Counted from the stretch's first letter, positions 3,928-43,833 are shown. The stretch: DNA of 64,000 nt from Schwartzia succinivorans DSM 10502 (GCF_900129225.1 NZ_FQUG01000003.1:62001-126000); one strand, 5' to 3'. Notes: generated by a model not told the origin, from the letters alone. Made by a program: numbers and translations.

Positions 3928-6900
3928 GTGCCACAAGATTTTTTTGAAAATGTTGGGAGCAGTTTGAAGGTGTTACGCAAAGAAATAGCTGCTATTTCTG
4001 AGCTTGATAATATAAAAAGGGATATTGATGAGGTAATTGAAAATATAAACAGTCCGCTGCTGGTTATGGTAATGGGGGAATTTTCCCGAGGAAAATCGAC
4101 ATTTATCAATGCGTTGGTCGGACAGTCTATTGCAATGGTCGATGCAAAGCCGACTACTGCCGTTATCACAAAGCTGTCCTATGGGGAAAAGGACAAAATT
4201 ACTGTATTTATGCGTGACGGCAGTGTAAAAAATTATGATACGGACAGCTTCGCACGTTTAACTGCACAGGGAAACGATAAAAGCAATAAACTTCATAAAA
4301 AAATAGATTATGTAGAGCGTACGCTGCCTATAGACATGCTGAAGTCTATGTCCATAATAGACAGCCCAGGCCTGAATTCTATCAATGATGTACACGAAGC
4401 GGCCACCAAAAGATTTATGGATAAAGCAGACACGGTTATTTGGCTGTTTGATGCTAATGATCCCTGTAAACAGACGGAAATAGATGCTCTGAAGAGACTT
4501 AATCCGCGTCTTGCTCCACTGGTTCTTGTAAATAAAATTGATGTAATTGATGAGGATGAGGGAGATACACCTGAAAAGGTATTGGCAAAGATAGAGCGCG
4601 ACCTCTCCAACAATAAGCTGGAGTATCAGAAAATTATTGGCATTTCAGCAAAAATGGCGTTTAAGGGAAAGGTGAATAATAACCAAAAACTGATTACGGC
4701 AAGCAATATCAACGAATTTTACGATGCTGTCGATACGATTATTTTGCCTAATAGAGAAAAATTCAAGCGCATATCTATGGTTGATGAATTGGCAAGGGTG
4801 TTTTTCTCTGCAGGCAGGATATTGAATGGTAAGCGTGAAGAGAATAATAATAGGAAAAATGCTGATTATTCCGCTTACATTGGAACTGAAGAAAGTCTTG
4901 CCTGTGCGTTAGATGAATTGGAAAATGCTGCAGACATTGTAATGACTGAAATAGATTCTGAACAAACAGCGCGCAGAAAACGGCTGAATCCCGCAGAAAA
5001 GACATTTTACGGTGCGTTATATTGGCACGGCCTTTTGGAAAAGAAGGATAGAAAAACGGCACAGAAGTATACGGAAGAGGCTGCTGTTCGTGGAGATGCG
5101 GTTGCGCAGATGAATCTGGCGGAGATGTATCAAGAGCTTGGACAGGAGGATAGGGCAGAATACTGGTTTCAGCGTTTGGGAAAAACACGTAAAGTTGGTG
5201 AGAATGCAGAAAGTGCGTATTCAAAGGCTGAAAAATATGCAAAAGATGGAAAATATACTGAAGCAGTAACGTGGGATTGCAAGGCAGCAGAAGCAGGAAA
5301 TGCAGATGCAATGGCTAATCGAGGTTATGTGTATGACTATGGTGTTGGTGTAGAAAAAGACAAAGCTGAGGCTTTAAAGTGGTATAAGGAAGCGATTAAA
5401 GCAGGTTGTAATGATGCAACTGTAAAAAAGAGAATAAAAGACATAGAAGCAGCGCAAGCATCGGCAAGTGGAGTTCAGAATACCTACCGGGCAGAGAGTA
5501 CAAATAAAAATTCATCACTCAGTGCCGAAGAAATGTACAGAAAAGCGGAACAATATTATCAAAGGCATAGCTTTGCAGAAGCAGTAAAGTGGTATCGTAA
5601 AGCAGCAGAAGTAGGAAATGCAGATGCAATGGCTAGTCTAGGTTATGCGTATGACTATGGTGTTGGTGTAGAAAAAGACAAAGCTGAGGCTTTAAAGAGG
5701 TATAAGGAAGCTATTAAAGCAGGCTGCAATGATGCAACTGTAAAAAAGAGAATAAAAGAAATAGAGTCAGCGCAATCATCGGCAAGTGGATTTCAAAACA
5801 TTTACCAGGCAGAGAGTACAAATAAAAATTCATCACTCAGTGCCGAAGAAATGTACAGAAAAGCGGAACAATATTATCAAAGGCATAGCTTTGCAGAAGC
5901 AGTGAAATGGTATCGCAAGGCAGCAGAAGCAGGAAATGCAGATGCAATGTATCATCTGGGTTATGCGTATGAATACGGTAGTGGGGTAAAGAAAGATAAA
6001 ATAGAAGCAGAAAAGTGGTATAAGAAGGCGGCTGGCGCAGGTTCAGAGTTCGCAAAGAGGAGAATAAAAGGAATAGAACTAGAAATATATAGTAAGGCAA
6101 CAGAAGCAGGAAATGCAGATGCAATGGCTAATCGAGGTTATGTGTATGACTATGGTGTTGGTGTAGAAAAAGACAAAGCTGAAGCTTTAAAGTGGTATAA
6201 GGAAGCGATTAAAGCAGGCTGTAATGATGCAACTGTAAAAAAGAGAATAAAAGAAATAGAGTCAGCGCAATCATCGGCAAGTGGATTTCAAAACATTTAC
6301 CAGGCAGAGAGTACAAATAAAAATTCATCACTCAGTGCCGAAGAAATGTACAGAAAAGCGGAACAATATTATCAAATGCATAGCTTTGCAGAAGCAGTGA
6401 AGTGGTATCGCAGGGCAGCAGAAGCTGGAAATAAGTACGCGATGTATGATTTAGGCTATGCATATGAAATAGGGCGAGGGGTAAAAAAAGATGAGAATGA
6501 AGCCGTAAAATGGTATAAGAAATCGGCGGGTGCAGGTTATCGAAAAGCAAAGCAACGCATTGAAGTGGTGGAAAAGAAAAACAGAAAAATATCAGATGTG
6601 GAAAAGAAAAACAGAATAATATCAGATGTTGAAAAAATGTACCAAAAGGGTAAATATCACTACGATTTAGGGAAAAAGCATGGCATTGGAAACTTTACGG
6701 AGGCTAGAGTGTGTTTTGAAAAAGCAGCTGAAGCAGGGCACATTGCTGCTATGTACTATTTGGGGGATATGTACGCACGAGGGCTTGAGGGATTTAAAAA
6801 CCTTGAAATAGCATCAAATTGGCTATCAAAAGCGGCGGCTTCCGGATATCTAGGTGCGCAAGAAAGATTAGATGAGGTAAAGAAAGAAAAGGAACAACGA

Positions 6901-7290
6901 AAGCAAGAAATTGAAAAACGCAAAAGAGAACAAGAAATAGAAAAACGCCCAAGAGAACAAGAAAGTGGTTTTTGCTTCATTACTACTGCTGTCTGCAATA
7001 GTTTTCAAAAAACAGATGACTGTTATGAGCTAACTATGTTTCGGTGTTTCCGTGACGGATGGCTAAAGGCGCAGCCGGACGGAGCGAAATTGATTAAGGA
7101 ATATTACGAGGTTGCTCCGAGTATTGTCAAAGCTATTGATGGTGAGAATAGAGCAAATGAGATTTATCACAGTATCTGGACAGAGTATTTGTCGCCATGC
7201 TTAAAAATGCTTGAGGACGGGTGTAATGAGGAATGTAAGGCGATGTATATGCGGATGGTGCTTGTATTGAAGAAGAAATATATTCATTAA
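3928..7290 (+). CDS. dynamin-family GTPase with Sel1 repeats and CFI-box C-terminus
   Basis: A 1120-residue protein starting at GTG after AAGGGGTAGAGG. Residues 1-300 are a dynamin-type GTPase: P-loop GEFSRGKST near 50-58, G3 motif DSPG near 146, G4 motif NKID near 202. Residues about 355-960 are Sel1-like TPR repeats with AEAGNADAMANRGYVYDYG-type units, some nearly identical even in DNA. A Lys/Glu/Arg coiled stretch follows, then a C-terminal domain beginning CFITTAVC at residue 1016, the cysteine-rich CFI-box seen at the end of diverse multidomain proteins. I see no obvious membrane segment. It is first of three adjacent dynamin genes, which suggests a joint membrane-remodelling or defence role. 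That role is inference. Confidence 0.85.
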   Translation: MPQDFFENVGSSLKVLRKEIAAISELDNIKRDIDEVIENINSPLLVMVMGEFSRGKSTFINALVGQSIAMVDAKPTTAVITKLSYGEKDKITVFMRDGSVKNYDTDSFARLTAQGNDKSNKLHKKIDYVERTLPIDMLKSMSIIDSPGLNSINDVHEAATKRFMDKADTVIWLFDANDPCKQTEIDALKRLNPRLAPLVLVNKIDVIDEDEGDTPEKVLAKIERDLSNNKLEYQKIIGISAKMAFKGKVNNNQKLITASNINEFYDAVDTIILPNREKFKRISMVDELARVFFSAGRILNGKREENNNRKNADYSAYIGTEESLACALDELENAADIVMTEIDSEQTARRKRLNPAEKTFYGALYWHGLLEKKDRKTAQKYTEEAAVRGDAVAQMNLAEMYQELGQEDRAEYWFQRLGKTRKVGENAESAYSKAEKYAKDGKYTEAVTWDCKAAEAGNADAMANRGYVYDYGVGVEKDKAEALKWYKEAIKAGCNDATVKKRIKDIEAAQASASGVQNTYRAESTNKNSSLSAEEMYRKAEQYYQRHSFAEAVKWYRKAAEVGNADAMASLGYAYDYGVGVEKDKAEALKRYKEAIKAGCNDATVKKRIKEIESAQSSASGFQNIYQAESTNKNSSLSAEEMYRKAEQYYQRHSFAEAVKWYRKAAEAGNADAMYHLGYAYEYGSGVKKDKIEAEKWYKKAAGAGSEFAKRRIKGIELEIYSKATEAGNADAMANRGYVYDYGVGVEKDKAEALKWYKEAIKAGCNDATVKKRIKEIESAQSSASGFQNIYQAESTNKNSSLSAEEMYRKAEQYYQMHSFAEAVKWYRRAAEAGNKYAMYDLGYAYEIGRGVKKDENEAVKWYKKSAGAGYRKAKQRIEVVEKKNRKISDVEKKNRIISDVEKMYQKGKYHYDLGKKHGIGNFTEARVCFEKAAEAGHIAAMYYLGDMYARGLEGFKNLEIASNWLSKAAASGYLGAQERLDEVKKEKEQRKQEIEKRKREQEIEKRPREQESGFCFITTAVCNSFQKTDDCYELTMFRCFRDGWLKAQPDGAKLIKEYYEVAPSIVKAIDGENRANEIYHSIWTEYLSPCLKMLEDGCNEECKAMYMRMVLVLKKKYIH
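5280..6420 (+). repeat. near-identical DNA repeats encoding Sel1 units
   Basis: A block containing TCATCACTCAGTGCCGAAG recurs three times, with its landmark ending at 5520, 5838 and 6333, so the periods are 318 and 495 bases. A second block coding for GYVYDYGVGVEKDKAEAL occurs three times, starting near 5300, 5620 and 6120. Copies differ by only a few bases, which points to recent duplication. Confidence 0.85.
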
Positions 7291-7309
7291 ATCTGGGGAG
7301 TGATTTTAT

Positions 7310-9226
7310 TTGAATTTAAGTAATTATCGACAGAAGGCAACTTCTTTAGCATCATACATGAAGAAAATAAGTGCCCTTGGTGAAGAGCTTAACATGCCAA
7401 GTGCATCAGAAGAAGTCACAAGAATCAAGAGACGTCTTGAGGATGAAACGTTTCATCTTGTAGTTGTGGGTGAGTTTTCACGTGGAAAATCTACCTTTGT
7501 AAATGCTCTTTTGGGCAGACGGATTCTTCCGTCGAGCAAGAATCCGACTACCGCTATTATCAGCAAAATTGTGTATGGAGATAGCCCTTCCTATCGAATT
7601 GTTTACAAGGACAAACGGCAGGAGGCTATGACTGAAGATGTATTCAAAAAAATCACGGCACCTCCTGAGCCGGACGAAAATGATCCTGACTCTGTGATGG
7701 AATTTGCAAAAGCACAGAAAGTCATTTCATCAATAGACTTTGCTGAGATTGCATATCCGATGTCTTTTTGCCGTGATAACGTGGAGCTGGTGGATACTCC
7801 GGGAACTAATGATTTAAATGTTGGACGTATGGAAATCACCTACGGGTATCTGAATCAGGCAGATGCAGTTATTTTGCTATTGGCGGCGTATCAGCCTCTT
7901 ACAGCATCTGAGGTACAGTTTCTGAAGGAACGTATACTCGGAAACAAGATACAGGATATTTTCTTTGTTATCAGTCATAAGGATGATTTGGATAATGAGG
8001 AACAGGAGAATGAAGTAACAGAGTTCATAAAAAAACATTTGCGTGAGATTTTTCCTGAAGGGTTAAGTTTGGATAATCGCATATTTCTTGTTAACAGTTT
8101 GGGCGCAGTTTATTTTCATATGCAGGAGCAGGGTGAGGAGCTGACTGCAAAGCAGGAGCTTAAGGTACCTGATAAATTCAGTGATACAGGATTTCAGGAT
8201 TTGGAATCTTCACTTGGGGAGTTTCTTTCGAATGAGAAGGGAAAGGTGCTCCTGAGGAAGTATAATCGTGATGTGCAGGGGATTATCAATACCATGCAGC
8301 ATGATATTTCTGTTAATATTGGTATCGTTATGCATTCTGCTGATGAGATCCGTGAAAAAGCTACAGAGCTATATCCAAAGTTTCAGCAGGCAAAACGCCA
8401 AGCAGAGAACATAATCTCAGATATGAGGATGTCTTTCGAGAGTGCTGGTTCGGATATAGAGTATAAATGTCAGTCTGCAGCGAATGCAATGCTGAACAAG
8501 GCAAAGAAAGCTGTGGAAACGCTCACTCGGGATATGTCGTCTACTGTTATGCAGGAAGCTATAGAACGTGAGGTTACAGCGGAAAAGAAAAAGTTCATAG
8601 ATACAACGCTAAAGGAATGGCAGAATATTTTTAATGGTGAAAATGATAAAGCACAGCGCGCTTTGCGTGGTATATGGCATGATATAGATGTTGAGTATCA
8701 GCGAAGCTTTAATCTACCTGCTGTTATAGACAATGAAAAATCGTTGACCATTTCAGTAGTAGAGGACGAAAAAAGTTTTTCGAAGCAGGCTTATGCTTTT
8801 GCCGGAGATATGTTTCGAAGTGCGGAAAAAGAAGATAATATTTTGGGTGTTATCGGCGGCATAGGTATGGGCGTGATTGCAGGTGCTGTTGGCGTTGTGG
8901 CAGATATTTTTAGTGCATTCTTCGGAAATAAGCGTGAGACGTGGCGCGATAAGATACGTGCCGAGGTTGTCCGTACGTACAGCGGGCAGGGAGAGAAAAT
9001 AGCGAAAGTTATGAAGGCACTGTATAAGGAAAAAACAGAGGCTCTTTGCCGTGACATACAAGGGAGTGTAAATGCCCGTATCGCTGACATGGAGTGGCAG
9101 CTGCAAAATATTCTCAGTGAAAAAGAGTCTAAAGAACAGGATGCCGAGAGGAAGAAATCATATCTTCTCTCAAAGCAGGCTGAGCTTAACAAAATCTCCG
9201 GTGAACTGAACCGGCTGGTATTGTAA
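7310..9226 (+). CDS. dynamin-family GTPase with membrane segment
   Basis: A 638-residue bacterial dynamin-like protein. The GTPase P-loop is GEFSRGKST at residues 54-62, with G3 VDTPGTND near 160 and an SHKDD segment in the G4 position. The middle and C-terminal parts are long helical stalk regions. A Gly-rich hydrophobic stretch around residues 514-540 (VIGGIGMGVIAGAVGVVADIF) resembles the membrane-inserting paddle or transmembrane hairpin of bacterial dynamins. The C-terminus is a Lys/Glu coiled coil. The TTG start at 7310 follows a GGGGAG site. It begins 19 bases after the first GTPase and ends 13 bases before the third, so the three are surely one operon. Confidence 0.88.
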   Translation: MNLSNYRQKATSLASYMKKISALGEELNMPSASEEVTRIKRRLEDETFHLVVVGEFSRGKSTFVNALLGRRILPSSKNPTTAIISKIVYGDSPSYRIVYKDKRQEAMTEDVFKKITAPPEPDENDPDSVMEFAKAQKVISSIDFAEIAYPMSFCRDNVELVDTPGTNDLNVGRMEITYGYLNQADAVILLLAAYQPLTASEVQFLKERILGNKIQDIFFVISHKDDLDNEEQENEVTEFIKKHLREIFPEGLSLDNRIFLVNSLGAVYFHMQEQGEELTAKQELKVPDKFSDTGFQDLESSLGEFLSNEKGKVLLRKYNRDVQGIINTMQHDISVNIGIVMHSADEIREKATELYPKFQQAKRQAENIISDMRMSFESAGSDIEYKCQSAANAMLNKAKKAVETLTRDMSSTVMQEAIEREVTAEKKKFIDTTLKEWQNIFNGENDKAQRALRGIWHDIDVEYQRSFNLPAVIDNEKSLTISVVEDEKSFSKQAYAFAGDMFRSAEKEDNILGVIGGIGMGVIAGAVGVVADIFSAFFGNKRETWRDKIRAEVVRTYSGQGEKIAKVMKALYKEKTEALCRDIQGSVNARIADMEWQLQNILSEKESKEQDAERKKSYLLSKQAELNKISGELNRLVL

Positions 9227-20352: not shown

Positions 20353-20380
20353 TTGACAAAAAAATTCTTTATAATATCAT
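20353..20380 (+). promoter_or_regulatory. candidate promoter of the partner-switching cluster
   Basis: TTGACA at 20353-20358 and TATCAT at 20375-20380 are 16 bases apart, about 140 bases before the phosphatase start. An alternative TATAAT at 20370 is too close to the -35 box. Confidence 0.5.
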
Positions 20381-20522: not shown

Positions 20523-22709
20523 TTGAAACTGAACATAAAACATCGCGTTTTGCTGTGGGGACTGTTTGCATCCCTGCTGACCTTCCTGTTGGCGGGCGCG
20601 ATTTATTTTTATTCTATGTCGGATACGAAGGATGCGTTTGCCAAACAGGGGGCGGCATTGGGGGACGATGTCGCGGAATCCGTAGGGCAGATTTCCGGGC
20701 AGGATGCAAAGGAACGTTTGCTGGCATCGGCTGTCCTCAAAGCGCGCCATATCGACCGTGAGCTCGTCCTTATCGGCGAGGATGTGGAATATATGGCGGA
20801 CCGGATGTCCATGCTTTTGACATCGCCAAACAGGTATCCTCCGAGAACTCTTCAAAGCACTCGGGACAGTGCAAGCATAACATCAGGAACACCTTATATC
20901 CATTTCAGCCCAACCCTTTCAAACGCACAAATAGAGAGTGATTTGGCGGAGGAAATCGAGACCGCCGGAAATATTGCCGACACTCTGAGCCTGATGAGCC
21001 GTTCCTACAGTGGCTATCGTTCCTGTTTTTTTGTCGTTTCGCGAAAAGGCTATTCGATTTATCTTGACATTACGGCGGACGGAAAAGGAAACGTGCTCCC
21101 CGACGGAGAGGCCCGCGAGGATATGCTCTCCGGCTTTGACCCTCGGGAACGGTCGTGGTATGAAATCGGACGAAACGCGAGCAATGCTACATACACTGCA
21201 CCTTATGCCGGTATCGACGGGCTTCTGAATATCAATTGCGTGGTTCCGTATTATGACGCGGACGGATTCGCCGGCGTTGCGGGTATCGTTTTTCCTATGG
21301 AGGAAGCGTATCGTCAGATTGCCGAATTTGTTACCGGCACGTCCGATATAGTGTTTGCTGTTGACCGTCGAGGCGAGGTGGCGTTTTCCTCTTTGGAGTC
21401 TGCCGTACTGACTGAGGCACTGGCAGACGCCGATGCCCGGGAGGCTGGAGAAGAATCATTTGCAGCGGCGATTAAGCGCATGACAGCCGGTGAAAGGGCT
21501 GTTGTGCCCGTCACCTTGAACGGAGAAGCGTATTATTTGGCATTCGCTCCTATGCCGTCCATCGGCTGGAGCTTTGGCACGCTGGTCAAAACGGACAAGG
21601 TAATGGCACCTGCCGTCGAAGCGCGGAAAAACATATTGGATTATACGAGTGAATTCCAGGCCACGCTGGAAGGCATCTTCGCAGATACCACCCGAAATGC
21701 TTTTATTGCCCTCGTGATAGCGGCATTGCTTCTCCTGATTGGAAGTGAAACGCTGGCAAGCCGCATTACGAATCCTATACGAAAGCTTGCCGACGGCGTG
21801 CGGACGATTGCAGGCGGCAATCTCGAATATAGGCTGGACGTTAAAACAGGCGATGAGATTGAGCTCCTCGCCAACAGCTTCAACAATATGACGGAAGAGC
21901 TCTCGGCGTATATGAAAAACCTGGAGCGCACCACCGCAGAAAAAGAACGTATTAAGACGGAGCTCGACCTGGCACGGAATATACAGGACGGTATGCTGCC
22001 GAAAGACTTTCCGCATCAAAAGGAATTTGATCTCATTGCGACGATGCACCCCGCAAAGGAGGTCGGCGGCGATTTTTATGATTTCTATTTCCTCGATGAA
22101 ACTCATCTGGCGGTGACGGTGGCAGATGTGTCAGACAAGGGGATTCCTGCGGCGCTTTTCATGGTCATTGCGAAAACTCTGCTGAAGGACAACACTGTAG
22201 GGGCTAAAAATCCCGAAAAGCTGTCGGAAGCCGTAGCAAAGACAAATGAAGCTCTCATCAGCAGTAATCAGGAGGGGATGTTCGTCACCGCCTTTTGCGG
22301 TATTCTTGACCTGAAAACAGGGGAATTCATATACGCGAACGCGGGACACAATCCGCCACTTATTCGTCATGGCACGGAATTTTCCTATTTCAAGAAGAGT
22401 CGGAACCTGGTGCTTGGCATTATGCCGGGAGAGGCATTTGAGACGGAAACGATTACTCTCGCTCCGGGCGATGCGATTTTCATATATACCGACGGCGTCA
22501 CCGAGGCGCTGGACACGAACTGCGAAATGTTCAGGGAAAACAGGCTGAAGGAGACGCTTGACAGCACGCCGGAAGGGTCTGATGCTGCCGGGTTGGTTAG
22601 TGCGGTCAAAACGACACTTGAAAGCTACACAGAAGGCACCGAACAGTCGGACGATATTACTATGCTTGCCCTCGTATATCACGGAAATAACGGGCCGAAG
22701 CCATCTTAA
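20523..22709 (+). CDS. membrane SpoIIE/RsbU-type PP2C phosphatase with Cache and HAMP
   Basis: A 728-residue sensor phosphatase. I chose the TTG at 20523, after GGAG, giving a short basic N-terminus before the first membrane segment; the frame stays open to 20442, with an ATG at 20472. It has a periplasmic dCache-like domain (DPRERSWYEIGR), a second membrane segment, a HAMP domain (SRITNPIRKLADGV), a coiled linker with LDLARNIQDGMLPKDF, and a C-terminal PP2C/SpoIIE domain with VGGDFYDF, VADVSDKG and IYTDGVTEA metal-binding motifs. Such enzymes dephosphorylate STAS anti-anti-sigma proteins. The STAS protein is the next gene, so it is the likely substrate. Confidence 0.93.
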   Translation: MKLNIKHRVLLWGLFASLLTFLLAGAIYFYSMSDTKDAFAKQGAALGDDVAESVGQISGQDAKERLLASAVLKARHIDRELVLIGEDVEYMADRMSMLLTSPNRYPPRTLQSTRDSASITSGTPYIHFSPTLSNAQIESDLAEEIETAGNIADTLSLMSRSYSGYRSCFFVVSRKGYSIYLDITADGKGNVLPDGEAREDMLSGFDPRERSWYEIGRNASNATYTAPYAGIDGLLNINCVVPYYDADGFAGVAGIVFPMEEAYRQIAEFVTGTSDIVFAVDRRGEVAFSSLESAVLTEALADADAREAGEESFAAAIKRMTAGERAVVPVTLNGEAYYLAFAPMPSIGWSFGTLVKTDKVMAPAVEARKNILDYTSEFQATLEGIFADTTRNAFIALVIAALLLLIGSETLASRITNPIRKLADGVRTIAGGNLEYRLDVKTGDEIELLANSFNNMTEELSAYMKNLERTTAEKERIKTELDLARNIQDGMLPKDFPHQKEFDLIATMHPAKEVGGDFYDFYFLDETHLAVTVADVSDKGIPAALFMVIAKTLLKDNTVGAKNPEKLSEAVAKTNEALISSNQEGMFVTAFCGILDLKTGEFIYANAGHNPPLIRHGTEFSYFKKSRNLVLGIMPGEAFETETITLAPGDAIFIYTDGVTEALDTNCEMFRENRLKETLDSTPEGSDAAGLVSAVKTTLESYTEGTEQSDDITMLALVYHGNNGPKPS

Positions 22710-22785
22710 ACGGTCAGCACCTGAATATTTTGAGCACTTTCACTATTGAAGACATTGTAAAGGGACAAAAAACGGAGGTATATTC

Positions 22786-24390
22786 ATGGATATCAGTATT
22801 ACGAAAAAAATTGATGGGGAGACGCTTACGCTGTTTTTGACGGGGCGGTTGGACAAACTCACGGGGCCAACGTTCGACGCGGAATTTCGCGCTTCAATCC
22901 CCGGATTCAAAGAGACCGTGCTGGATGTTTCAGGGCTTGAGTATCTTTCCTCTGCAGGACTCCGTTCATTGATTACGGCAAACAATCAAATGAAAAAGCA
23001 GGGCGGTGGCCTGACGGTCAAAAATCCGACGCCTGATGTGATGGACATATTCGAGATGACGAATTTCGGGCGGCTGCTCCGGATTGTAAAGGACGAGTAT
23101 GGCGGGCAGGGCGAAGAGAAGCCCCCGCAATATTATCCATTGCGTCCAATTCAGCGTTGGCTGGTCGATACCCATTTCCAAAAAGCGAACTCGACGATGA
23201 TGAACATCGGTGCTTTGGTGCGGCTTGATGCATCTATCGATATGGAGCGCATGGCAGATGCACTGAATGATATCCTGTCTTCCTATGATATCTTCCGCTG
23301 CCGTTTGCTGTTCCACCCGGAAACGGGAGAGGTCTGCCAGCGCTTCGACGGAGAAGTGGCACGGGTATATGTGGAAACGCTTTCTGACGAGGCTTTTGAA
23401 AAACGTAAACTTGACCTCAAGGAACCATATTCAATTATTGACCGTCCGCTCTATCGGGTGCACCTGATGGAGACTCCATCAGGAAAATATATTTACGCGG
23501 ACTTTTATCATGCCACAGTGGATGGCATGGCAGTCGCACTGATTTTTTGGCGTGAACTCGACAAACGCTATGTGCGTGGAATGGAGAACGCTATTGCACG
23601 AAAGGCGCCGAGCTACGCGGAATATGTCCTCGCAGAGTCTAAGATTTCACCGGAAGATTTGGAGGAAGGGCACGCTTACTGGCGAAAAACGCTTGACGGC
23701 TTTGATGAGAATAAGCACCTGCCTCCGGCTGATGTCGAAAACGCAGGAGCATGGAAGAAAAACGAGTTTGAAATGCCGTTGAAAACCGCAATTGCCAAAG
23801 ACTTTTTCAAGGGAAAAGATTTTACGGAAAACACCTTTTTTATGGCGGCGGCGATGCTTGCGATGGCGAAATCCGCAGGGGTTCGCGAGTCCATCATGAG
23901 CTGGGTGCACAACGGGCGAATGAACGCTGCAGAGCGTCGCCTGCTGGGACTTATGCTGAATCAGATTCCTATTCGCTGGGATTTCGAGGACGGGCTTACT
24001 GTCGATGCGTTCCTACGCGGACTGGAAGCGCGGATTGCGGAAGGAATGAAATATGTCAAAAGTTTGGATGTAGTGTATAACGAGGGGCTCGAAGACCTGT
24101 GTGCTACATTCATATTCCAAAAGGGCACCACGGGACGGCGTGGCAGTGCGCGTCTCGGAGGCACGGAAGCCGTGTACGAGGAGATGCCTGAAAACGAATG
24201 GTCGGCGGCGGAAAATACGCTGGACATCGAACTTAATGCCCGTACCGACGGGACGTTTTCATTGGTGATGAATTATGATGCCAGCCGCTACTCCGTAGAT
24301 GCCATGCACCGATTCGCCCGGACGGTGGACGAAATGATAGGGGCGCTCACGGATGGGAATCGGAACGTAACGGAACTTTTAAAAGCGTGA
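22786..24390 (+). CDS. STAS domain fused to condensation-type acyltransferase domain
   Basis: A 534-residue two-domain protein. Residues 1-105 are a STAS anti-anti-sigma-like domain with the phospho-acceptor region EYLSSAGLR (Ser55/Ser56). From about residue 113 (YYPLRPIQRWLVD) to the end is an NRPS-type condensation domain: the HHxxxDG motif reads YHATVDG, keeping the catalytic His242 and Asp246 but with Tyr for the first His, and RLLGLMLNQIPIRW matches the later N-x-x-P-x-R motif. It sits between a SpoIIE-type phosphatase and a MATE-kinase-like fusion. I infer that phosphorylation of the STAS part controls acyl transfer or binding. No carrier protein gene is visible nearby. Confidence 0.85.
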   Translation: MDISITKKIDGETLTLFLTGRLDKLTGPTFDAEFRASIPGFKETVLDVSGLEYLSSAGLRSLITANNQMKKQGGGLTVKNPTPDVMDIFEMTNFGRLLRIVKDEYGGQGEEKPPQYYPLRPIQRWLVDTHFQKANSTMMNIGALVRLDASIDMERMADALNDILSSYDIFRCRLLFHPETGEVCQRFDGEVARVYVETLSDEAFEKRKLDLKEPYSIIDRPLYRVHLMETPSGKYIYADFYHATVDGMAVALIFWRELDKRYVRGMENAIARKAPSYAEYVLAESKISPEDLEEGHAYWRKTLDGFDENKHLPPADVENAGAWKKNEFEMPLKTAIAKDFFKGKDFTENTFFMAAAMLAMAKSAGVRESIMSWVHNGRMNAAERRLLGLMLNQIPIRWDFEDGLTVDAFLRGLEARIAEGMKYVKSLDVVYNEGLEDLCATFIFQKGTTGRRGSARLGGTEAVYEEMPENEWSAAENTLDIELNARTDGTFSLVMNYDASRYSVDAMHRFARTVDEMIGALTDGNRNVTELLKA

Positions 24391-24399
24391 GGATGGCCT

Positions 24400-24471
24400 A
24401 TGCACAATAAAACTTGCAGCGCGATTTGTATTCTTGGTCATCTGCTGATGGCTTTCGGAGCGATAGTGTAA
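24400..24471 (+). CDS. possible 23-residue hydrophobic peptide
   Basis: A short ORF reading MHNKTCSAICILGHLLMAFGAIV. It begins 10 bases after the STAS-condensation stop behind a GGATGG sequence, and its TAA overlaps the ATG of the MATE fusion (TAATG). It may be a coupling leader or a small membrane peptide. The evidence is position and reading frame only. Confidence 0.35.
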   Translation: MHNKTCSAICILGHLLMAFGAIV

Positions 24472-26246
24472 TGGAAAATTATTCGTCGCTTTCGGCGTAT
24501 TTTACCCGAAAAATGTTCCTTCGGGCAGTATTGCCAGCCCCTTTGGCAGGCATTGGGCTGGCACTGGCTGAAATGGGTGATACCATTCTGATCGGTCACG
24601 CTATCGGTATGGACGGTATTGCCGCCATTGCTTATATTTCCCCACTTTTTCTGCTGGCGACCTTTTTCGTTTTTGGCCTATCAATGGGCGGCGCGGTGGT
24701 TTTTTCGACGCTGATGCACGAGGGGGAAAAGAAACAGGCACTGGCAATCTTTAACTTTTTCATGCGCCTCTCCTGCGTCATCGGCTTTGGCATCATGGCG
24801 GCGGGGCTTTTCATGGGGGACAGCCTGCTTTATATACTGGGCGCGACACCTGATGAGGGTGTCGTGTTCGATATGGCGAAAAGCTATGTGTTCTACATTC
24901 TTCTGGGGATTCCCTTTCAGATTCTGCTGGGCGTGGTGACGGCATATCTTCGGAACGACAATGCCAATGCGTTTTCCGTTGCGCTACAGACGGCGGCTGG
25001 CGTCGGCAACCTTATTCTCAGCGCGATTCTGCTGCTCTTTTTCGATTGGGGTGTTGCAGGATGCAGCTTCGGCTTCTTCGCTTCAAACGCGGTTGCGTTT
25101 CTCATCGGTTTCCTCTATCTCTTCCTGGGGAAAGGGGAACTCAGAATTCAGCGTGAAACCGCTTCCTTTGCCGATGCGGTTAAGCCGCTGCGGCTTGGCT
25201 TTGCAACCTCCTTTGAATACATTTTCGGAGCGATATTTGCTCTTGTTTCCCTTCATATTCTGACGAATCTGGCGGGCACTGAGGGAGCGGCGATTTTTAA
25301 TATCGTAGAAAATCTGTCGCAGCTTTTCATCTTCATGTACGAACTCATCGGAAAGACGGCACAGCCCATTTTTTCAACGTTTTTCTCGGAATGTAATTTT
25401 CGCGAGCTGCACCGTATGTTCAGGTACTGCCTCGTCTATTCGCTGGCGGTGGGCGCCGTTGCAACTATAGCCGCGATTATCTATCCTGAAATCGTGGACC
25501 TGTTATTCGGGCTTGAGGACATAAGGGACGCGGCGGCGGCCTATTACGCGGTGCGGGTATTTTGTATCGGGGCGATTTTCATGGGCGTATGTCTCCTGCT
25601 GCAAAATTACTTCCAGTCAGAGGAGGATGAGCAGGGCGCATTTCTCGTCGTTTTTTTGCGGCGGATGGGCATAGGCGTTGTCTTGGCACTGGTTCTGTCC
25701 CGTTTTGGACTTGATGCCTTTTGGATGGTGTACCCGCTCTCCGAGCTTCTGACGCTGCTGGCTGTTATCGTTTACAAACGCTGCCATGGCGAACGGACGA
25801 ACATCGACCCTGCGCGGGTATATGCCTCCGCTTTTTACGGCAACGCCAAAAACGTCGTCGAGCATCTGGATGCCATTGACGCTTTCGCAGCCCACTGGGG
25901 TGCCGACAAGCACAAGCGGTTTTTGCTTCGCATGGCTTTGGATGAAATATCGGGCCTCATCAACGAACGCGCCACACGCCGCGCCAATACGAACGTCCTG
26001 CTGCAGCTTACGCTGATTGCCAAAGAAACTACCGGAATGCAAAGTCCCGAATTTGAGATTCACCTTCGGGACGACGCGAAAAATTTTGACCCATTCCTGA
26101 TTCCCGTAGGGCCGATTTCTGTCGTGCCGGAGCGGACGGAGGATTTGGACGTGGAGGCACTCGGCATGTACTTTGTCCGAAGCCGCGTTCATAGCTTTTT
26201 CTTCAGAAACTACCAAGGCTTCAATACGACAATGATGGTGATATGA
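24471..26246 (+). CDS. MATE-family transporter fused to RsbW-like ATPase domain
   Basis: A 591-residue fusion starting at ATG 24471 behind GGAG. Residues about 10-440 are a MATE/polysaccharide flippase-type transporter with twelve or so hydrophobic segments (LPAPLAGIGLALAEMGDTILIGHAIG at the start of the core). Residues about 455-591 resemble the histidine-kinase-like ATPase of anti-sigma kinases: LLRMALDEISGLINERA corresponds to the N box, LRDDAKNFDPF to the G1 box, and LGMYFVRSRVHSFFFRNYQGFNTTMMVI to the terminal strands. The N box lacks the usual Asn, so kinase activity is doubtful. Together with the two upstream genes it completes a partner-switching trio. Confidence 0.85.
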   Translation: MENYSSLSAYFTRKMFLRAVLPAPLAGIGLALAEMGDTILIGHAIGMDGIAAIAYISPLFLLATFFVFGLSMGGAVVFSTLMHEGEKKQALAIFNFFMRLSCVIGFGIMAAGLFMGDSLLYILGATPDEGVVFDMAKSYVFYILLGIPFQILLGVVTAYLRNDNANAFSVALQTAAGVGNLILSAILLLFFDWGVAGCSFGFFASNAVAFLIGFLYLFLGKGELRIQRETASFADAVKPLRLGFATSFEYIFGAIFALVSLHILTNLAGTEGAAIFNIVENLSQLFIFMYELIGKTAQPIFSTFFSECNFRELHRMFRYCLVYSLAVGAVATIAAIIYPEIVDLLFGLEDIRDAAAAYYAVRVFCIGAIFMGVCLLLQNYFQSEEDEQGAFLVVFLRRMGIGVVLALVLSRFGLDAFWMVYPLSELLTLLAVIVYKRCHGERTNIDPARVYASAFYGNAKNVVEHLDAIDAFAAHWGADKHKRFLLRMALDEISGLINERATRRANTNVLLQLTLIAKETTGMQSPEFEIHLRDDAKNFDPFLIPVGPISVVPERTEDLDVEALGMYFVRSRVHSFFFRNYQGFNTTMMVI

Positions 26247-26430: not shown

Positions 26431-26786
26431 ACAGCATGTTGTATAAAGCCATAGCAACCCTGTCGAAAGAAAAACATCCCTTAGTTCATTCAGACCGTGG
26501 CTGCCATTATCGTTGACCAGGATGGATTGAACGTATGGAAACCCGAAAACTTACCTGTTCAATGTCGAAAAAGGGATATTCCCCTGATAATTCAGCATGT
26601 GAGGGCCTGTTTGGCAGGCTGAAGAATGAAATGTTCTACAACAGGGATTGGAAAGGTGTAAGCATACCGGAATTCATAGATGTCCTCAATGAATATCTTG
26701 TTTGGTATAACGAGAAGAGGATTAAAGTGTCACTTGGAAATATGAGTCCCGTAGAGTATAGACAAAGTCTTGGATTAGTCGTATAA
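26373..26786 (+). pseudogene. IS3-family transposase OrfB remnant
   Basis: C-terminal part of an IS150-like integrase-type transposase: FDGMLPAWTIGTAPNAALVN, HSDRGCHYR, then after an in-frame TGA at 26514 the frame continues as PGWIERM, SMSKKGYSPDNSACEG, FGRLKNEMFY, LNEYLVWYNEKRIK, LGNMSPVEYR. The TGA replaces what should be a Trp codon. HSDRG and the DNSACEGFFG-type Glu region are the second and third acidic DDE positions. The N-terminal half and OrfA are missing, so the copy cannot move by itself. Confidence 0.9.
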
Positions 26787-26977: not shown

Positions 26978-27697
26978 ATGAATAAGGATTTATTTCTTCA
27001 AAAAGCAACTATTGACTGGAAGAAGATTGACGAGAACAGCTATCTTCATGATATTCTCGCGATTAGCAAGATTAAAAGTCTTTCATTCAATAGTCCTGTA
27101 ACATTTTTCGTAGGGGAAAATGGAAGTGGAAAATCCACAATGCTTGAGGCAATTGCTATAGCAGCTGGGTTTAACCCCGAAGGTGGAACAAAAAATTATT
27201 TTTTTTCAACTTATGATTCTCATTCTGAACTCTGTGATGCAATCCACTTAACGCGTGGTTTACGGAGAGAAAAATGGGGCTATTTCTTTCGTGCAGAGAG
27301 CTTTTATAACGTAGCGACGAAAGAGGAAGAATATAGTAGGCTTGGTGGGGTACCACGATGTTACCATGAAAAATCGCATGGGGAAAGTTTTTTTGCCCTG
27401 GCGGAAGATAATTTTCGTCCCAATGGTCTCTATTTTCTCGATGAACCTGAGGCAGCACTTTCGCCACAGCGACAGCTTGCATATCTACGGAAAATATATC
27501 TCTGCGCTCAAAGAGGGGCTCAGTTCGTAGTTGTTAGTCATTCTCCGATTTTGCTTGGATTGCCTGGTGCTGAGATTTTGGTTTTTGATGACAATAAACC
27601 CCATCGGTGCTCTTATGAGCAGACAGACAGCTATGCTGTGACATCACTGTTTATTAATCATCGTGAACGGTTGTTGCGTGATTTGTTGGATGAATAA
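26978..27697 (+). CDS. small AAA/ABC-type ATPase
   Basis: A 239-residue single-domain ATPase of the OLD/SMC-like AAA group. Walker A is GENGSGKS at residues 46-53, the signature-like SHGESFFAL lies near 133-141, Walker B is YFLDEPEAALSP near 152-163, and the switch His is in VVSHSPILLG. The size and layout match stand-alone AAA_21 ATPases seen in bacterial defence and mobile contexts. A GIY-YIG protein follows after about 60 bases. It starts after GGAGAG. The biological role is unknown. Confidence 0.85.
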   Translation: MNKDLFLQKATIDWKKIDENSYLHDILAISKIKSLSFNSPVTFFVGENGSGKSTMLEAIAIAAGFNPEGGTKNYFFSTYDSHSELCDAIHLTRGLRREKWGYFFRAESFYNVATKEEEYSRLGGVPRCYHEKSHGESFFALAEDNFRPNGLYFLDEPEAALSPQRQLAYLRKIYLCAQRGAQFVVVSHSPILLGLPGAEILVFDDNKPHRCSYEQTDSYAVTSLFINHRERLLRDLLDE

Positions 27698-27757
27698 CTG
27701 ATATGGAGAATTTTATAATTGTAATAAGAACGGTGCTGATTAAGGCAGGTGTGTAAT

Positions 27758-28357
27758 GTGGAAAAGGGATTCATTTATATCATGACAAATCCTGCATTAA
27801 GGGATATGGTCAAGATTGGATATGCAGCGGATGTGGAGAAGCGACGGAAGCAGCTTTCTTCGACAGGTCTTCCATATGATTACGAGGTTTATGCTACATA
27901 TGAAACCTCAGGGAATCTGGAAGATTTGAAGCTTCATAAAATGATTGACAAGCTTAATCCTGATTTGCGTGTTGTTTCCAATAAAGAGTTCTTTGTGATG
28001 ACTCCACAAGAGGCATACGAATTGTTAGAGAATATAGCAACTATCAGTGGTACAATGGACAAGTTGAAGAAGATTAAGGTTGATGAGACAAAGAAACAGA
28101 CTGTAAAGAAGCCAGCTGTGAATTTTGCAAAATGTGGTATTCCTGTCGGGGCAGAACTTGTTTTCACGGAAGATCCAACTGTTAAGGTAACAGTTATCAG
28201 TGACCGTAAAGTCCAATGGAATGAAGAGGAGACATCTTTGTCAGCTGTGGCTGCTCTGTTAAAGCATTCAAAAGCAATACAGGGTTCTGCTTTTTTTACT
28301 TATAACGGAAAATTGATAACCAAGATTGCTGAGGAAACTCAGTGGAATGATTATTGA
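27758..28357 (+). CDS. GIY-YIG (T5orf172-type) nuclease-fold protein
   Basis: A 199-residue protein. I use the GTG at 27758, behind AAGGCAGG; an in-frame GTG at 27749 is too close to that site. Residues about 4-95 are a GIY-YIG/T5orf172 domain: GFIYIMTNPALRDMVKIG, then DVEKRRKQLSSTGLP. The C-terminal part from about 125 (FAKCGIPVGAELVF, then AVAALLK) resembles the small DNA-binding-like RAMA/DUF4357-type module often attached to methylases and nucleases. It may be a nicking nuclease, and it lies directly after the AAA ATPase. Activity is inferred from family only. Confidence 0.8.
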   Translation: MEKGFIYIMTNPALRDMVKIGYAADVEKRRKQLSSTGLPYDYEVYATYETSGNLEDLKLHKMIDKLNPDLRVVSNKEFFVMTPQEAYELLENIATISGTMDKLKKIKVDETKKQTVKKPAVNFAKCGIPVGAELVFTEDPTVKVTVISDRKVQWNEEETSLSAVAALLKHSKAIQGSAFFTYNGKLITKIAEETQWNDY

Positions 28358-37612: not shown

Positions 37613-39400
37613 ATGATGGAATCCAGCAATGAGAAAATTCAAGAGGTAGGCAAAAATATACAGGAAAAGGCTGCTCTCGTTTGGTCTGTTGCGGATGACC
37701 TTGTAGGTGCTTTCAAGCCGCATGAATACGGCCTTGTGGTGCTTCCTATGGCGGTTATCAAGCGTTTTCATGACTGTCTGCTTCCTACCCATGACAAGGT
37801 GCTGAAGACTTACGAAGATGTAAAGAATTTAGCTGTAAAAGACGGATTTCTTAAGAAAGCAGCAGGCTATCAGTTTTACAATACAAGCAAGTTTACCTTT
37901 GATTTGCTGACGGCAGACCCGGAGAACATAGAAGCAAATTTTGAGGATTTTCTCAATGGATTCTCTGAGAACGTTCAGGACATACTGGCCCGCATGGACT
38001 TCTCTTCGCAGGTAAAGCGAATGATTGAAGGCGGGCTTCTTTATCGTGTCGTTTCGGATTTCAACTCGGAAAAGGGAGATTTCTCGCCAGAAAAGATTGC
38101 AGCAGTGGATATGGGCTACATCTTTGAAAACCTGGTTCAGAGATTCTCTGAGTCATACAACGAAGAAGCAGGAGCACACTTCACCAGCCGTGATGTCATA
38201 TACCTCATGTGTGATTTGCTGGTGGCAGGGGATAATAATGCCTTTGAGGATGAAGGCATATCCAAGACTGTATATGATATGACAATGGGCACAAGTCAGA
38301 TGCTCACCTGTATGGAGGAACGGCTTAAAGCCCTTGATGCCGATGCGGATATTGATGTATTCGGACAGGAGTTCAATCCATTTACATTTGGTATCGCAAA
38401 GGCTGACATGCTTATCCGTGGCGGTGATCCGAACAACATGCAGTTCGGAGACACGCTCTCCGACGATAAATTTACCGACTATCACTTTGACTACGTTATT
38501 TCAAATCCGCCCTTTGGTATTCCTTGGAAAAGAGAAGAAAAAGAAGTTGAAGCCGAGCACAAGAAAGGTGCTGCAGGACGGTTCGCACCGGGGCTTCCTT
38601 CCAAATCTGACGGACAGATGCTTTTCATGCTGAACGGTGTAGCAAAGCTCAAAGAAACAGGCAGAATGGCAATAATACAGAACGGTTCATCACTTTTCAC
38701 AGGAGACGCAGGAAGCGGACAGTCTGAAATACGCCGTTACCTCATCGAAAATGACTGGCTGGATGCTATCGTGCAGCTCCCGAATGATACCTTCTACAAC
38801 ACGGGTATCGCCACCTATGTATGGGTTATTACGAGAGATAAAGAAGAAAAACGCATAGGAAAAGTGCAGCTTATTGATGCAAGCAACTGCTATACCAGCC
38901 GCAGGAAAAATATCGGTAATAAACGTGTAGACATCACCACTGCCTGCCGTGATTTGATTGTGAAAATCTATGGTGACTACGTGGATGGCACATTCAGGGA
39001 TGTGGACGAAAACGGCAATGAAATCATCGTAAAGAGTAAGGTATTGGACGCTGTAACACTGGGCTATAACAAGATAACTGTTGAGTCCCCTGAGCTGGAC
39101 GAGGAAGGCAATAAAGTCCTCAAGAGTAAAAAGCCTGTGGCAGATACCAAGAAACGTGATACGGAGAACGTGCCTCTTGATGAGGATATTGATGCCTATT
39201 TCAAGCGAGAGGTATTGCCTTATAATCCTGATGCGTGGATTGACAAGAAAAAGACCAAGGTGGGCTATGAGATTCCGTTTACCCGCACCTTCTATGAATA
39301 TAAGCAGATAGAGCCGGCTGATGTAATTGCCAAACGTATCGAGGAACACGAAAAGAGCTTGATGGCTAAACTCCATGAACTGTTCGGGGAGGAAGCATAA
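37613..39400 (+). CDS. hsdM: type I restriction-modification methyltransferase subunit HsdM
   Basis: A 595-residue adenine methyltransferase. An N-terminal helical HsdM_N region is followed by the SAM-binding core: motif I in the variant form VYDMTMGTSQML, FGQEFNPFTFGIAKADM, and the catalytic motif IV NPPFG with Asn298. FAPGLPSKSDGQMLFMLNG and GDAGSGQSEIRRYLIENDWLDAIVQLP are typical of the family. It methylates the recognition site specified by HsdS and is required for restriction too. hsdS overlaps its stop codon (TAATG), so hsdMSR are one operon. Confidence 0.95.
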   Translation: MMESSNEKIQEVGKNIQEKAALVWSVADDLVGAFKPHEYGLVVLPMAVIKRFHDCLLPTHDKVLKTYEDVKNLAVKDGFLKKAAGYQFYNTSKFTFDLLTADPENIEANFEDFLNGFSENVQDILARMDFSSQVKRMIEGGLLYRVVSDFNSEKGDFSPEKIAAVDMGYIFENLVQRFSESYNEEAGAHFTSRDVIYLMCDLLVAGDNNAFEDEGISKTVYDMTMGTSQMLTCMEERLKALDADADIDVFGQEFNPFTFGIAKADMLIRGGDPNNMQFGDTLSDDKFTDYHFDYVISNPPFGIPWKREEKEVEAEHKKGAAGRFAPGLPSKSDGQMLFMLNGVAKLKETGRMAIIQNGSSLFTGDAGSGQSEIRRYLIENDWLDAIVQLPNDTFYNTGIATYVWVITRDKEEKRIGKVQLIDASNCYTSRRKNIGNKRVDITTACRDLIVKIYGDYVDGTFRDVDENGNEIIVKSKVLDAVTLGYNKITVESPELDEEGNKVLKSKKPVADTKKRDTENVPLDEDIDAYFKREVLPYNPDAWIDKKKTKVGYEIPFTRTFYEYKQIEPADVIAKRIEEHEKSLMAKLHELFGEEA

Positions 39401-40779
39401 TGAAGGCTATAATGCGCGATGAACAGGAAATGAAGGATAGCGGGATTGAGTGGATAGGGAAAATCCCAGCTTCATGGAATATAGAACGCATGAAAAATCA
39501 ATTTGTTTATAATAAAGGATTAAACATTACTAAGGCAGATTTAGTAGATGAAGGGGTTGCTGTCATTAGTTATGGACAGATTCATGCAAAAAATAACACT
39601 GGTACTACGCTAAACCCTGAGTTTTTAAGATACATATCTCCAGACAATATAGCAATTAATGATAAATCGTTGCTTAATATGGGTGATATTGTTTTTGCCG
39701 ATACATCTGAGGATTATGATGGGTTAGGAAATGCAGTATATATGGACAGTGATACGGAAACCTATGCTGGATATCACACCATTATAGCAAGGCTGAAAAA
39801 TATTGATTATTCCAAGTATTTTGCTTATCTATTTAAAAGTGATGCATGGAGAGAGCAACTTCGGGTTCGTGCGAGTGGAATAAAGGTATTTAGTGTGACT
39901 CAGAGAATGTTAAATGATGTTACATTGATTATGCCGGAAAAAAATGCTATTAGACCTATTATTTCTTATCTTGATGACCGTTGTGGGAAGATAGATGCTC
40001 TCATTGCTGAAGCTAAAGCCAGTATTGAGGAATACAAGGAACTGAAACAGGCTGTTATCTATGAGGCTGTTACTAAGGGATTAGATAAGAATGTTGAGAT
40101 GAAGGATAGCGGTGTTGAATGGATTGATAATATTCCTGCTAACTGGAATTTGGTAAAAATAACGCGTATCCTTGATAAAAATCATCCGTATGCAATTGGC
40201 GATGGTGATCATGGTTCTATAAAGACAGATCAATATCTTGATAGTGGAATACCGTTTATTCGAGTACAAAATTTAGGTTGGGGAACTGCTCTGAATTTGG
40301 AAAATGTTGTATATATCTCTGAGGAAGATAATAAACAAATTCAAAACAGTACGTTAAGACCTAATGATATTTTGTTTGCAAAGACTGGTGCCACTATAGG
40401 TAAGACTGCAATTATGCCAGATAATATTCCAGTTGCTAATACAACTTCTCATGTAGGGAAAATAACGCTTTCTAAAGAACATAATCCTAAATATGTATTT
40501 TATGTACTCAGCTCTCAAGTTGGCTACAGACAATTTTGGGATATTGCACTGCAAAAGACTACACGACCAGAGTTGTCTATCGAAGAAACAAAATCAATAA
40601 AAATATTACTGCCTCATGATAGAAGTATTGAAGATGATATTGTTAGCTACTTAGATGATAAATTACCTGTTTTTGATCAACTGATTGAGACGAAAATGGC
40701 TTTAATCGAAGACCTAGAAGCCTACAAAAAATCCCTGATTTACGAGGTAGTTACCGGCAAGCGGAAGGTGGTGGAGTAA
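39400..40779 (+). CDS. hsdS: type I restriction-modification specificity subunit HsdS
   Basis: A 459-residue specificity subunit with two target-recognition domains. Each half opens with the same motif, MKDSGIEWIGKIPASW near residue 8 and MKDSGVEWIDNIPANW near 231, and each ends with a helical conserved region (KIDALIAEAKASIEEYKELKQAVIYEAVTKGL and VFDQLIETKMALIEDLEAYKKSLIYEVVTG). The two variable domains define the two halves of the bipartite DNA target, which cannot be read from sequence here. Start overlaps hsdM, and hsdR follows at once. Confidence 0.95.
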   Translation: MKAIMRDEQEMKDSGIEWIGKIPASWNIERMKNQFVYNKGLNITKADLVDEGVAVISYGQIHAKNNTGTTLNPEFLRYISPDNIAINDKSLLNMGDIVFADTSEDYDGLGNAVYMDSDTETYAGYHTIIARLKNIDYSKYFAYLFKSDAWREQLRVRASGIKVFSVTQRMLNDVTLIMPEKNAIRPIISYLDDRCGKIDALIAEAKASIEEYKELKQAVIYEAVTKGLDKNVEMKDSGVEWIDNIPANWNLVKITRILDKNHPYAIGDGDHGSIKTDQYLDSGIPFIRVQNLGWGTALNLENVVYISEEDNKQIQNSTLRPNDILFAKTGATIGKTAIMPDNIPVANTTSHVGKITLSKEHNPKYVFYVLSSQVGYRQFWDIALQKTTRPELSIEETKSIKILLPHDRSIEDDIVSYLDDKLPVFDQLIETKMALIEDLEAYKKSLIYEVVTGKRKVVE

Positions 40780-43700: not shown

Positions 43701-43833
43701 TACGGCACAGCAGGCGTATGCTGAGAGTCAGGAGACATACACTCAGCTTTTCAGGGATTCGGAGAAGTATCATGTGATAATGAATGCACTGGCTTCGGCC
43801 CTGTTCAGCGAGTTGAGCCAGCCGCAGTTGTGA
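40780..43833 (+). CDS. hsdR: type I restriction endonuclease subunit HsdR
   Basis: A 1017-residue motor/nuclease subunit, starting at GTG immediately after the hsdS stop. The N-terminal nuclease motif [19 protein letters not shown] near residue 138-156 has the D...ExK arrangement. The SF2 translocase motor follows: Walker [11 protein letters not shown] near 313, DEAH in [10 protein letters not shown] near 424, FTATP, and the later [11 protein letters not shown] and TLSRLNR motifs. The C-terminal helical domain joins HsdM. All key motifs are intact, so the system should restrict unmodified DNA. Confidence 0.96.

Follow-up and report, generated by a model that had tools for sequence, protein, structure and literature searches.

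Organization of the operon

The window analysed here is the whole 64,000-nucleotide stretch of Schwartzia succinivorans DSM 10502 DNA (GCF_900129225.1, NZ_FQUG01000003.1:62001-126000; positions are counted from its first letter), in which three intact, co-directional open reading frames (ORFs) at 20523-26246 on the + strand encode a Cache-HAMP-SpoIIE receptor phosphatase (RsbU-like), a STAS domain (RsbV-like) fused to a condensation domain of the nonribosomal peptide synthetase (NRPS) type (STAS-C), and a MATE transporter with a C-terminal RsbW-like domain (MATE/RsbW) (Table 1). An earlier note, made from the sequence alone, had assigned this domain content, which was confirmed by Pfam, profile-profile and fold comparisons; its statement that no sigma factor is nearby also held, none being present within the window. 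The arrangement suggests a partner-switching module that has an enzyme and an exporter as output instead of a sigma factor, and we regard the domain content and the conserved wiring as practically certain.

The MATE ORF can be extended to a TTG at 24414; the most likely start is the ATG at 24471, because GGAG is found 11 nt upstream of it and the starts in relatives lie near there. Promoter and terminator scans of the region gave results at or near chance. The integrase remnant 3' of the operon is a possible scar of rearrangement.

Table 1. Features of the operon region (window positions)
Feature	Position	Strand	Basis or remark
Promoter-like site TTGACA-16-TATCAT, upstream of operon	20353..20380	+	Consensus scan, 11/12 matches; weak, such sites being no commoner in the region than in shuffles
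Cache-HAMP-SpoIIE (RsbU-like PP2C) receptor phosphatase, 728 aa, TTG start	20523..22709	+	Pfam
STAS-condensation fusion gene, whole	22786-24390	+	
STAS (RsbV-like) domain, residues 1-106	22786..23103	+	Pfam; PDB SpoIIAA matches
Ser56 codon of STAS domain	22951..22953	+	Alignment to SpoIIAA phosphoserine; invariant in 19 relatives
NRPS-type condensation domain, residues 116-522	23131..24351	+	Pfam; AlphaFold2 model
His242 codon, second His of HHxxxDG (YHATVDG)	23509..23511	+	Invariant in relatives' alignment
MATE transporter with C-terminal RsbW-like domain, 591 aa from ATG 24471	24471..26246	+	Pfam MatE; homologue adjacency
RsbW-like domain, probable pseudokinase	25779..26243	+	Orthologue alignment, profile comparison, AlphaFold2 model, fold matches
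IS3-type integrase core remnant just 3' of operon	26535..26786	+	Pfam rve_2 1e-14, rve_3 7e-8

The three proteins

The phosphatase matches the Pfam families SpoIIE (E-value 6e-46), dCache_1 (2e-16) and HAMP (3e-16). The Asp motifs GGDFYDF, ADVSDKG, YTDGVTE and SDDIT can be read in its sequence, and from general knowledge of PP2C/SpoIIE phosphatases we take them to serve in metal binding and catalysis. Its best NCBIfam match is SiaA, at 87 bits and below the equivalog cut-off. The ratio of nonsynonymous to synonymous substitution rates (dN/dS) between the window's genome (G000) and genome G006 is 0.17 for this gene.

In STAS-C, the N-terminal part matches STAS_2 (6e-13) and SpoIIAA in the PDB (2e-6), and the remainder matches the Pfam Condensation family (3e-39); an AlphaFold2 model of the protein matches NRPS condensation domains (3e-23). 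The condensation motif reads YHATVDG, in which the second His and the DG of HHxxxDG are kept and the first His is replaced by Tyr, and H242, D246 and G247 are invariant in 19 relatives, so the fusion of a STAS domain to an NRPS-type condensation domain with a retained catalytic His, as first noted, is upheld. Either Ser55 or Ser56 had been put forward as the phosphosite: Ser56 is aligned with the phosphoserine Ser58 of SpoIIAA and is invariant among the same 19 relatives, while Ser55 varies in that alignment and falls away. Ser56 is likely the phosphosite, as judged from this alignment. The dN/dS value is 0.09 for STAS-C overall and 0.07 for the condensation part, the most constrained part.

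The transporter portion of the third protein contains two MatE stretches (Pfam MatE, 1e-17) and matches TIGR00797 at 4e-27, yet below the curated cut-off; dN/dS for the gene is 0.11. Its C-terminal tail scores under the Pfam gathering score for HATPase_c_2 (E-value 0.0064), BLASTP of the tail against the genome's own RsbW gave nothing significant, and the same was true of phmmer against the PDB, matches being obtained only by profile and fold comparison. The assignment of an RsbW-like domain is nevertheless upheld by the Selenomonas orthologue, which scores above the gathering threshold (4e-7), by profile-profile alignment to canonical RsbW (hhalign probability 90%, 2e-6), and by an AlphaFold2 model (pLDDT 70) whose closest PDB folds in Foldseek are RsbW (6e-6), UsfX and SpoIIAB (6e-6 to 5e-4, TM up to 0.80 of the target). 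The seven top PDB matches of this model all come from complexes with STAS partners. The N box of the tail retains Glu and has no Asn in 13 of 13 orthologues aligned, in agreement with the suspicion that the kinase residue was missing and the switch domain catalytically degenerate, and the first Gly of the G1 box is replaced in the window protein (DDAKNFD). The loss of the Asn makes the tail most likely a pseudokinase, and with such a fused ATPase domain the true kinase would have to act in trans.

Gene order in relatives

Recurrence of the gene order in other genomes had been set beforehand as one of the points on which the reading would stand or fall, and the order was found. Among 151 genomes of the window's family, close homologues of MATE/RsbW are present in 17, and all 17 are directly behind STAS-C or an NRPS with adenylation, carrier and condensation domains (A-T-C NRPS), and never elsewhere; in 3 of the 17, STAS-C itself is absent from the same contig. 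The commonest arrangement, found in Selenomonadaceae and Acidaminococcaceae, is SpoIIE - (free STAS) - STAS-C - A-T-C NRPS - MATE/RsbW, with the NRPS between STAS-C and MATE/RsbW in most relatives (Selenomonas ruminantium, Succiniclasticum). Free RsbW genes with clear Pfam scores stand beside the operon in G064 (L039) and in an Acidaminococcaceae metagenome-assembled genome (MAG; L084).

In addition to its three domains, the operon NRPS has about 200 N-terminal residues that look like the final third (C-terminal lobe) of a condensation domain (probability 79%, 2e-5). With the N-terminal condensation domain of the NRPS thus truncated, STAS-C could supply the missing condensation step in trans.

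Full-length STAS-C is confined to the window's family in a separate sample of 398 genomes of the phylum; carriers beyond that pattern are Acidaminococcaceae, one Synergistota MAG and one Oribacterium MAG, and the neighbourhood of the Oribacterium relative (sugar-acid catabolism and a carboxyltransferase) gives no clue to the product. The named relatives (Schwartzia, Selenomonas ruminantium, Succiniclasticum, Anaerovibrio, Quinella) come from rumen or other ruminant-gut samples, and cultured carriers include S. ruminantium ATCC 12561 and S137 and Succiniclasticum ruminis DSM 9236.

Variant arrangements are also present. In Anaerovibrio and some S. ruminantium strains, the MATE protein encoded after STAS-C ends in a divergent RsbW-like domain (hhalign 96%, 1e-8), and RND and DUF6056 genes lie alongside in most of these loci. 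In genus g13, where the condensation enzyme lacks STAS, the adjoining MATE protein in many loci keeps a related tail, from which it follows that the pair of condensation enzyme and tailed MATE protein either predates the STAS fusion or is more widespread. A fourth arrangement is seen in L145 and L151, where a large NRPS (1805-2403 aa) and then MATE stand one gene on from a free condensation gene. DUF6056 membrane proteins adjoin condensation/MATE genes in L048, L054, L056-L059, L061, L078 and L079, often paired and with an RND pump; a search of open-licence papers gave no paper on DUF6056. In a Selenomonas sp. MAG (L045:4147-10884), a further STAS - A-T-C NRPS - SpoIIE cluster is located directly 5' of the main operon, and its NRPS is only 28% like the main one.

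Probable loss of the NRPS in the window's lineage

The cognate A-T-C NRPS was not found in the window's genome or in G006, and none was detected in G095, a genome that is 82% complete. In the sister genome G050 the NRPS is kept, some genes further downstream and accompanied by another copy of MATE/RsbW. These four genomes are nested among NRPS carriers in a tree of condensation domains, of which only this nested position is used since very long outgroup branches make the root unreliable; loss of the NRPS in the window's lineage is therefore more likely than absence from the start. The dN/dS values of 0.07-0.17 on every part, between two genomes that have no NRPS, argue that the module still works on something. 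STAS-C in the window's genome would then have to use another donor and acceptor.

Counts of phosphopantetheinyl transferase genes, considered as an indicator of NRPS activity, did not follow the presence of the NRPS, and the motif positions of the A-domain specificity code, read by eye, match no familiar code. A split A-domain ligase on contig C14 of the same genome was considered as a rescued NRPS and rejected: it occurs with a CoA-binding domain and an FkbM methyltransferase, and no carrier domain is beside it.

A canonical RsbW and a second condensation family

The one strong match to canonical RsbW in the window's genome is on contig C13, with no sigma factor beside it. The region C13:286401-296747 (L164) contains RsbW - SpoIIE - STAS, genes for a DegS-like kinase and a Lys/Orn decarboxylase, and STAS followed directly by a second condensation protein of 617 residues, whose C-terminus is cyclic-nucleotide-binding-like (condensation-cNMP; weak Pfam match, 6e-5). 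The condensation-cNMP gene is 6-8 kb from the SpoIIE-STAS genes and this RsbW. This family occurs in 75 of the 151 family genomes. In 13 of 21 condensation-cNMP loci, a gene for STAS, RsbW or SpoIIE lies no more than 1.2 kb away in the same direction (12, 6 and 6 loci, respectively), which is far from chance given the handful of such genes per genome, and two of the 21 (L216, L217) hold complete SpoIIE-RsbW-enzyme-STAS sets. These neighbourhoods give separate support for partner switches controlling condensation enzymes in these bacteria.

A further SpoIIE - STAS pair of the same genome is located at C17:91789-94425 (L168:6789-9425); its phosphatase is 42% identical, and a sigma factor gene lies about 5.5 kb further on.

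Proposed mechanism and alternatives

Partner-switch control of the enzyme/exporter pair is, in our judgement, probable. We propose that the Cache-HAMP receptor would sense an extracytoplasmic ligand and that the SpoIIE domain would dephosphorylate the STAS domain at Ser56, with a free-standing RsbW (on C13 here, beside the operon in some relatives) restoring the phosphate. The unphosphorylated STAS domain may then dock on the pseudokinase tail of the MATE protein, at its cytoplasmic end, and bring the condensation enzyme to the exporter, so that synthesis would be coupled with export (or blocked); in most relatives, the condensation enzyme would work with the neighbouring A-T-C NRPS. The scheme draws support from the domain content, the fold of the tail, closest to STAS-binding anti-sigma kinases, the missing N-box Asn, the invariant Ser56, the gene order, the adjacency in all 17 genomes, the tailed MATE proteins next to condensation genes in distant sub-lineages, the truncated N-terminus of the NRPS, the free RsbW genes, the condensation-cNMP neighbourhoods and the purifying selection on every part. 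In full, with the state of Ser56 setting the coupling of synthesis and export, it is predicted from sequence and models and is proposed tentatively, at a little under even chances.

Several observations weigh against the scheme. The NRPS partner is missing from the window's genome; the C13 protein is a candidate kinase in trans, picked solely as the one strong RsbW match; in G095 there is no SpoIIE gene adjacent to the operon; and the lineages with a condensation enzyme and a MATE tail in which STAS is absent indicate that docking is not the tail's only role everywhere. The idea that the operon makes a product and moves it through the membrane was strengthened by the A-T-C NRPS lying between the two genes in most relatives. 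An acyl-amide, as first suggested, is one option for that product, along with a peptide bond, an ester or an amide release.

The pseudokinase tail could instead be an inhibitor that holds unphosphorylated STAS-C at the membrane, with phosphorylation freeing the active enzyme. The anatomy would be the same as for docking, and BtrV binds BtrW when phosphorylated (PMC8256260), so switches of this kind can also run in the opposite sense, and either sign of control is conceivable here. Nothing decisive speaks against inhibition; a tail fused to an exporter agrees better with recruitment, and we consider the inhibitor role unlikely.

About equally improbable is an output limited to transport, with opening or closing of the MATE pump as the switch's sole effect and the condensation domain serving as a scaffold without catalysis. 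Condensation-like domains that lack catalytic activity do exist, Tyr takes the place of the first His of HHxxxDG here, and the window's genome has no NRPS, but the catalytic His and the DG are invariant in 19 relatives, the condensation part is under the strongest constraint, and a full A-T-C NRPS is kept in the operon by most relatives.

The operon might also be what is left of an NRPS cluster that lost its A-T-C gene in this lineage and is now decaying. The distribution of the NRPS (absent from G000 and G006, none detected in G095, moved in G050), the nested position of the clade, the integrase remnant downstream and the loss of a G1-box Gly in lineage A would all fit decay; three intact ORFs under strong purifying selection between the NRPS-less genomes (dN/dS 0.09-0.17) would not, and we give this explanation slightly less weight again.

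Least likely of all, the STAS domain would be a docking domain that brings an acyl or aminoacyl carrier protein to the condensation domain, with the MATE tail and SpoIIE linked only by operon history: the STAS domain of E. coli YchM binds the acyl carrier protein and condensation domains require carrier-bound substrates, but SpoIIE and RsbW-like domains travel with STAS-C, Ser56 is invariant, and in the condensation-cNMP family free STAS genes accompany complete SpoIIE/RsbW sets.

Other features of the window

Two neighbouring dynamin-like GTPases are encoded at 3928-9226, the first one fused to Sel1 repeats. An AAA_21/AbiEii-like ATPase followed by a T5orf172 (GIY-YIG-like) protein (26978-28357) is possibly a small defence or mobile set. 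A type I restriction-modification system occupies 37613-43833 (HsdM, 37613-39400; HsdR, 40780-43833), and a 459-aa ORF with no family assigned is found between HsdM and HsdR, in the position of a specificity subunit.

Comparison with known systems and significance

The Rsb/SpoIIA switches (RsbU-RsbV-RsbW, SpoIIE-SpoIIAA-SpoIIAB) share with this operon the PP2C phosphatase, a STAS domain with a conserved Ser and the RsbW-type GHKL fold. The differences are that here there is no sigma factor output, the STAS domain is on a condensation enzyme, and the RsbW fold is on a MATE exporter and lacks the N-box Asn; an active Ser kinase is not encoded in the same locus, the canonical RsbW being available only in trans. 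Free-standing NRPS condensation enzymes and A-T-C modules have the condensation fold and catalytic His in common with STAS-C, and an A-T-C NRPS is in the relatives' operon, whereas the N-terminal STAS domain, the SpoIIE operon and the lost NRPS partner set the window's genome apart.

The nearest precedent is SiaABCD of Pseudomonas aeruginosa, in which the phosphatase is again a membrane PP2C and an enzyme is the direct target of the partner switch (PMC8457831). That enzyme is a diguanylate cyclase (SiaD) bound by a separate SiaC, whereas in our case STAS and enzyme are fused and a transporter carries the kinase-like domain; no cyclase domain is present in the three operon proteins. In all4160 of Anabaena, a glycosyltransferase with STAS and thus a STAS fusion outside SulP, the STAS domain is likewise N-terminal to a biosynthetic enzyme (PMC8256260), but the enzyme class is another and no exporter with an RsbW-like tail is described there. 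In open-licence papers, nothing relevant was found on STAS with condensation, NRPS or MATE domains.

Slightly more doubtful than the docking scheme, though still worth stating, is a general mode of control in Selenomonadaceae and their neighbours, in which partner switches would gate condensation-domain biosynthesis directly in two families and, in the first of them (STAS-C with MATE/RsbW), the exporter pseudokinase would be a phosphorylation-sensitive dock that passes the product, as it is made, from the enzyme on to the pump. Control of NRPS pathways is generally placed mainly at the level of transcription. If true, a phospho-switch on the enzyme and the exporter would allow secondary metabolism to be gated quickly and post-translationally, would be an output of a new class for partner switches, and would offer a way to undescribed small molecules made by abundant rumen bacteria. 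In the rumen, relatives of Selenomonas may place the making and export of a small molecule under the direct control of an external signal.

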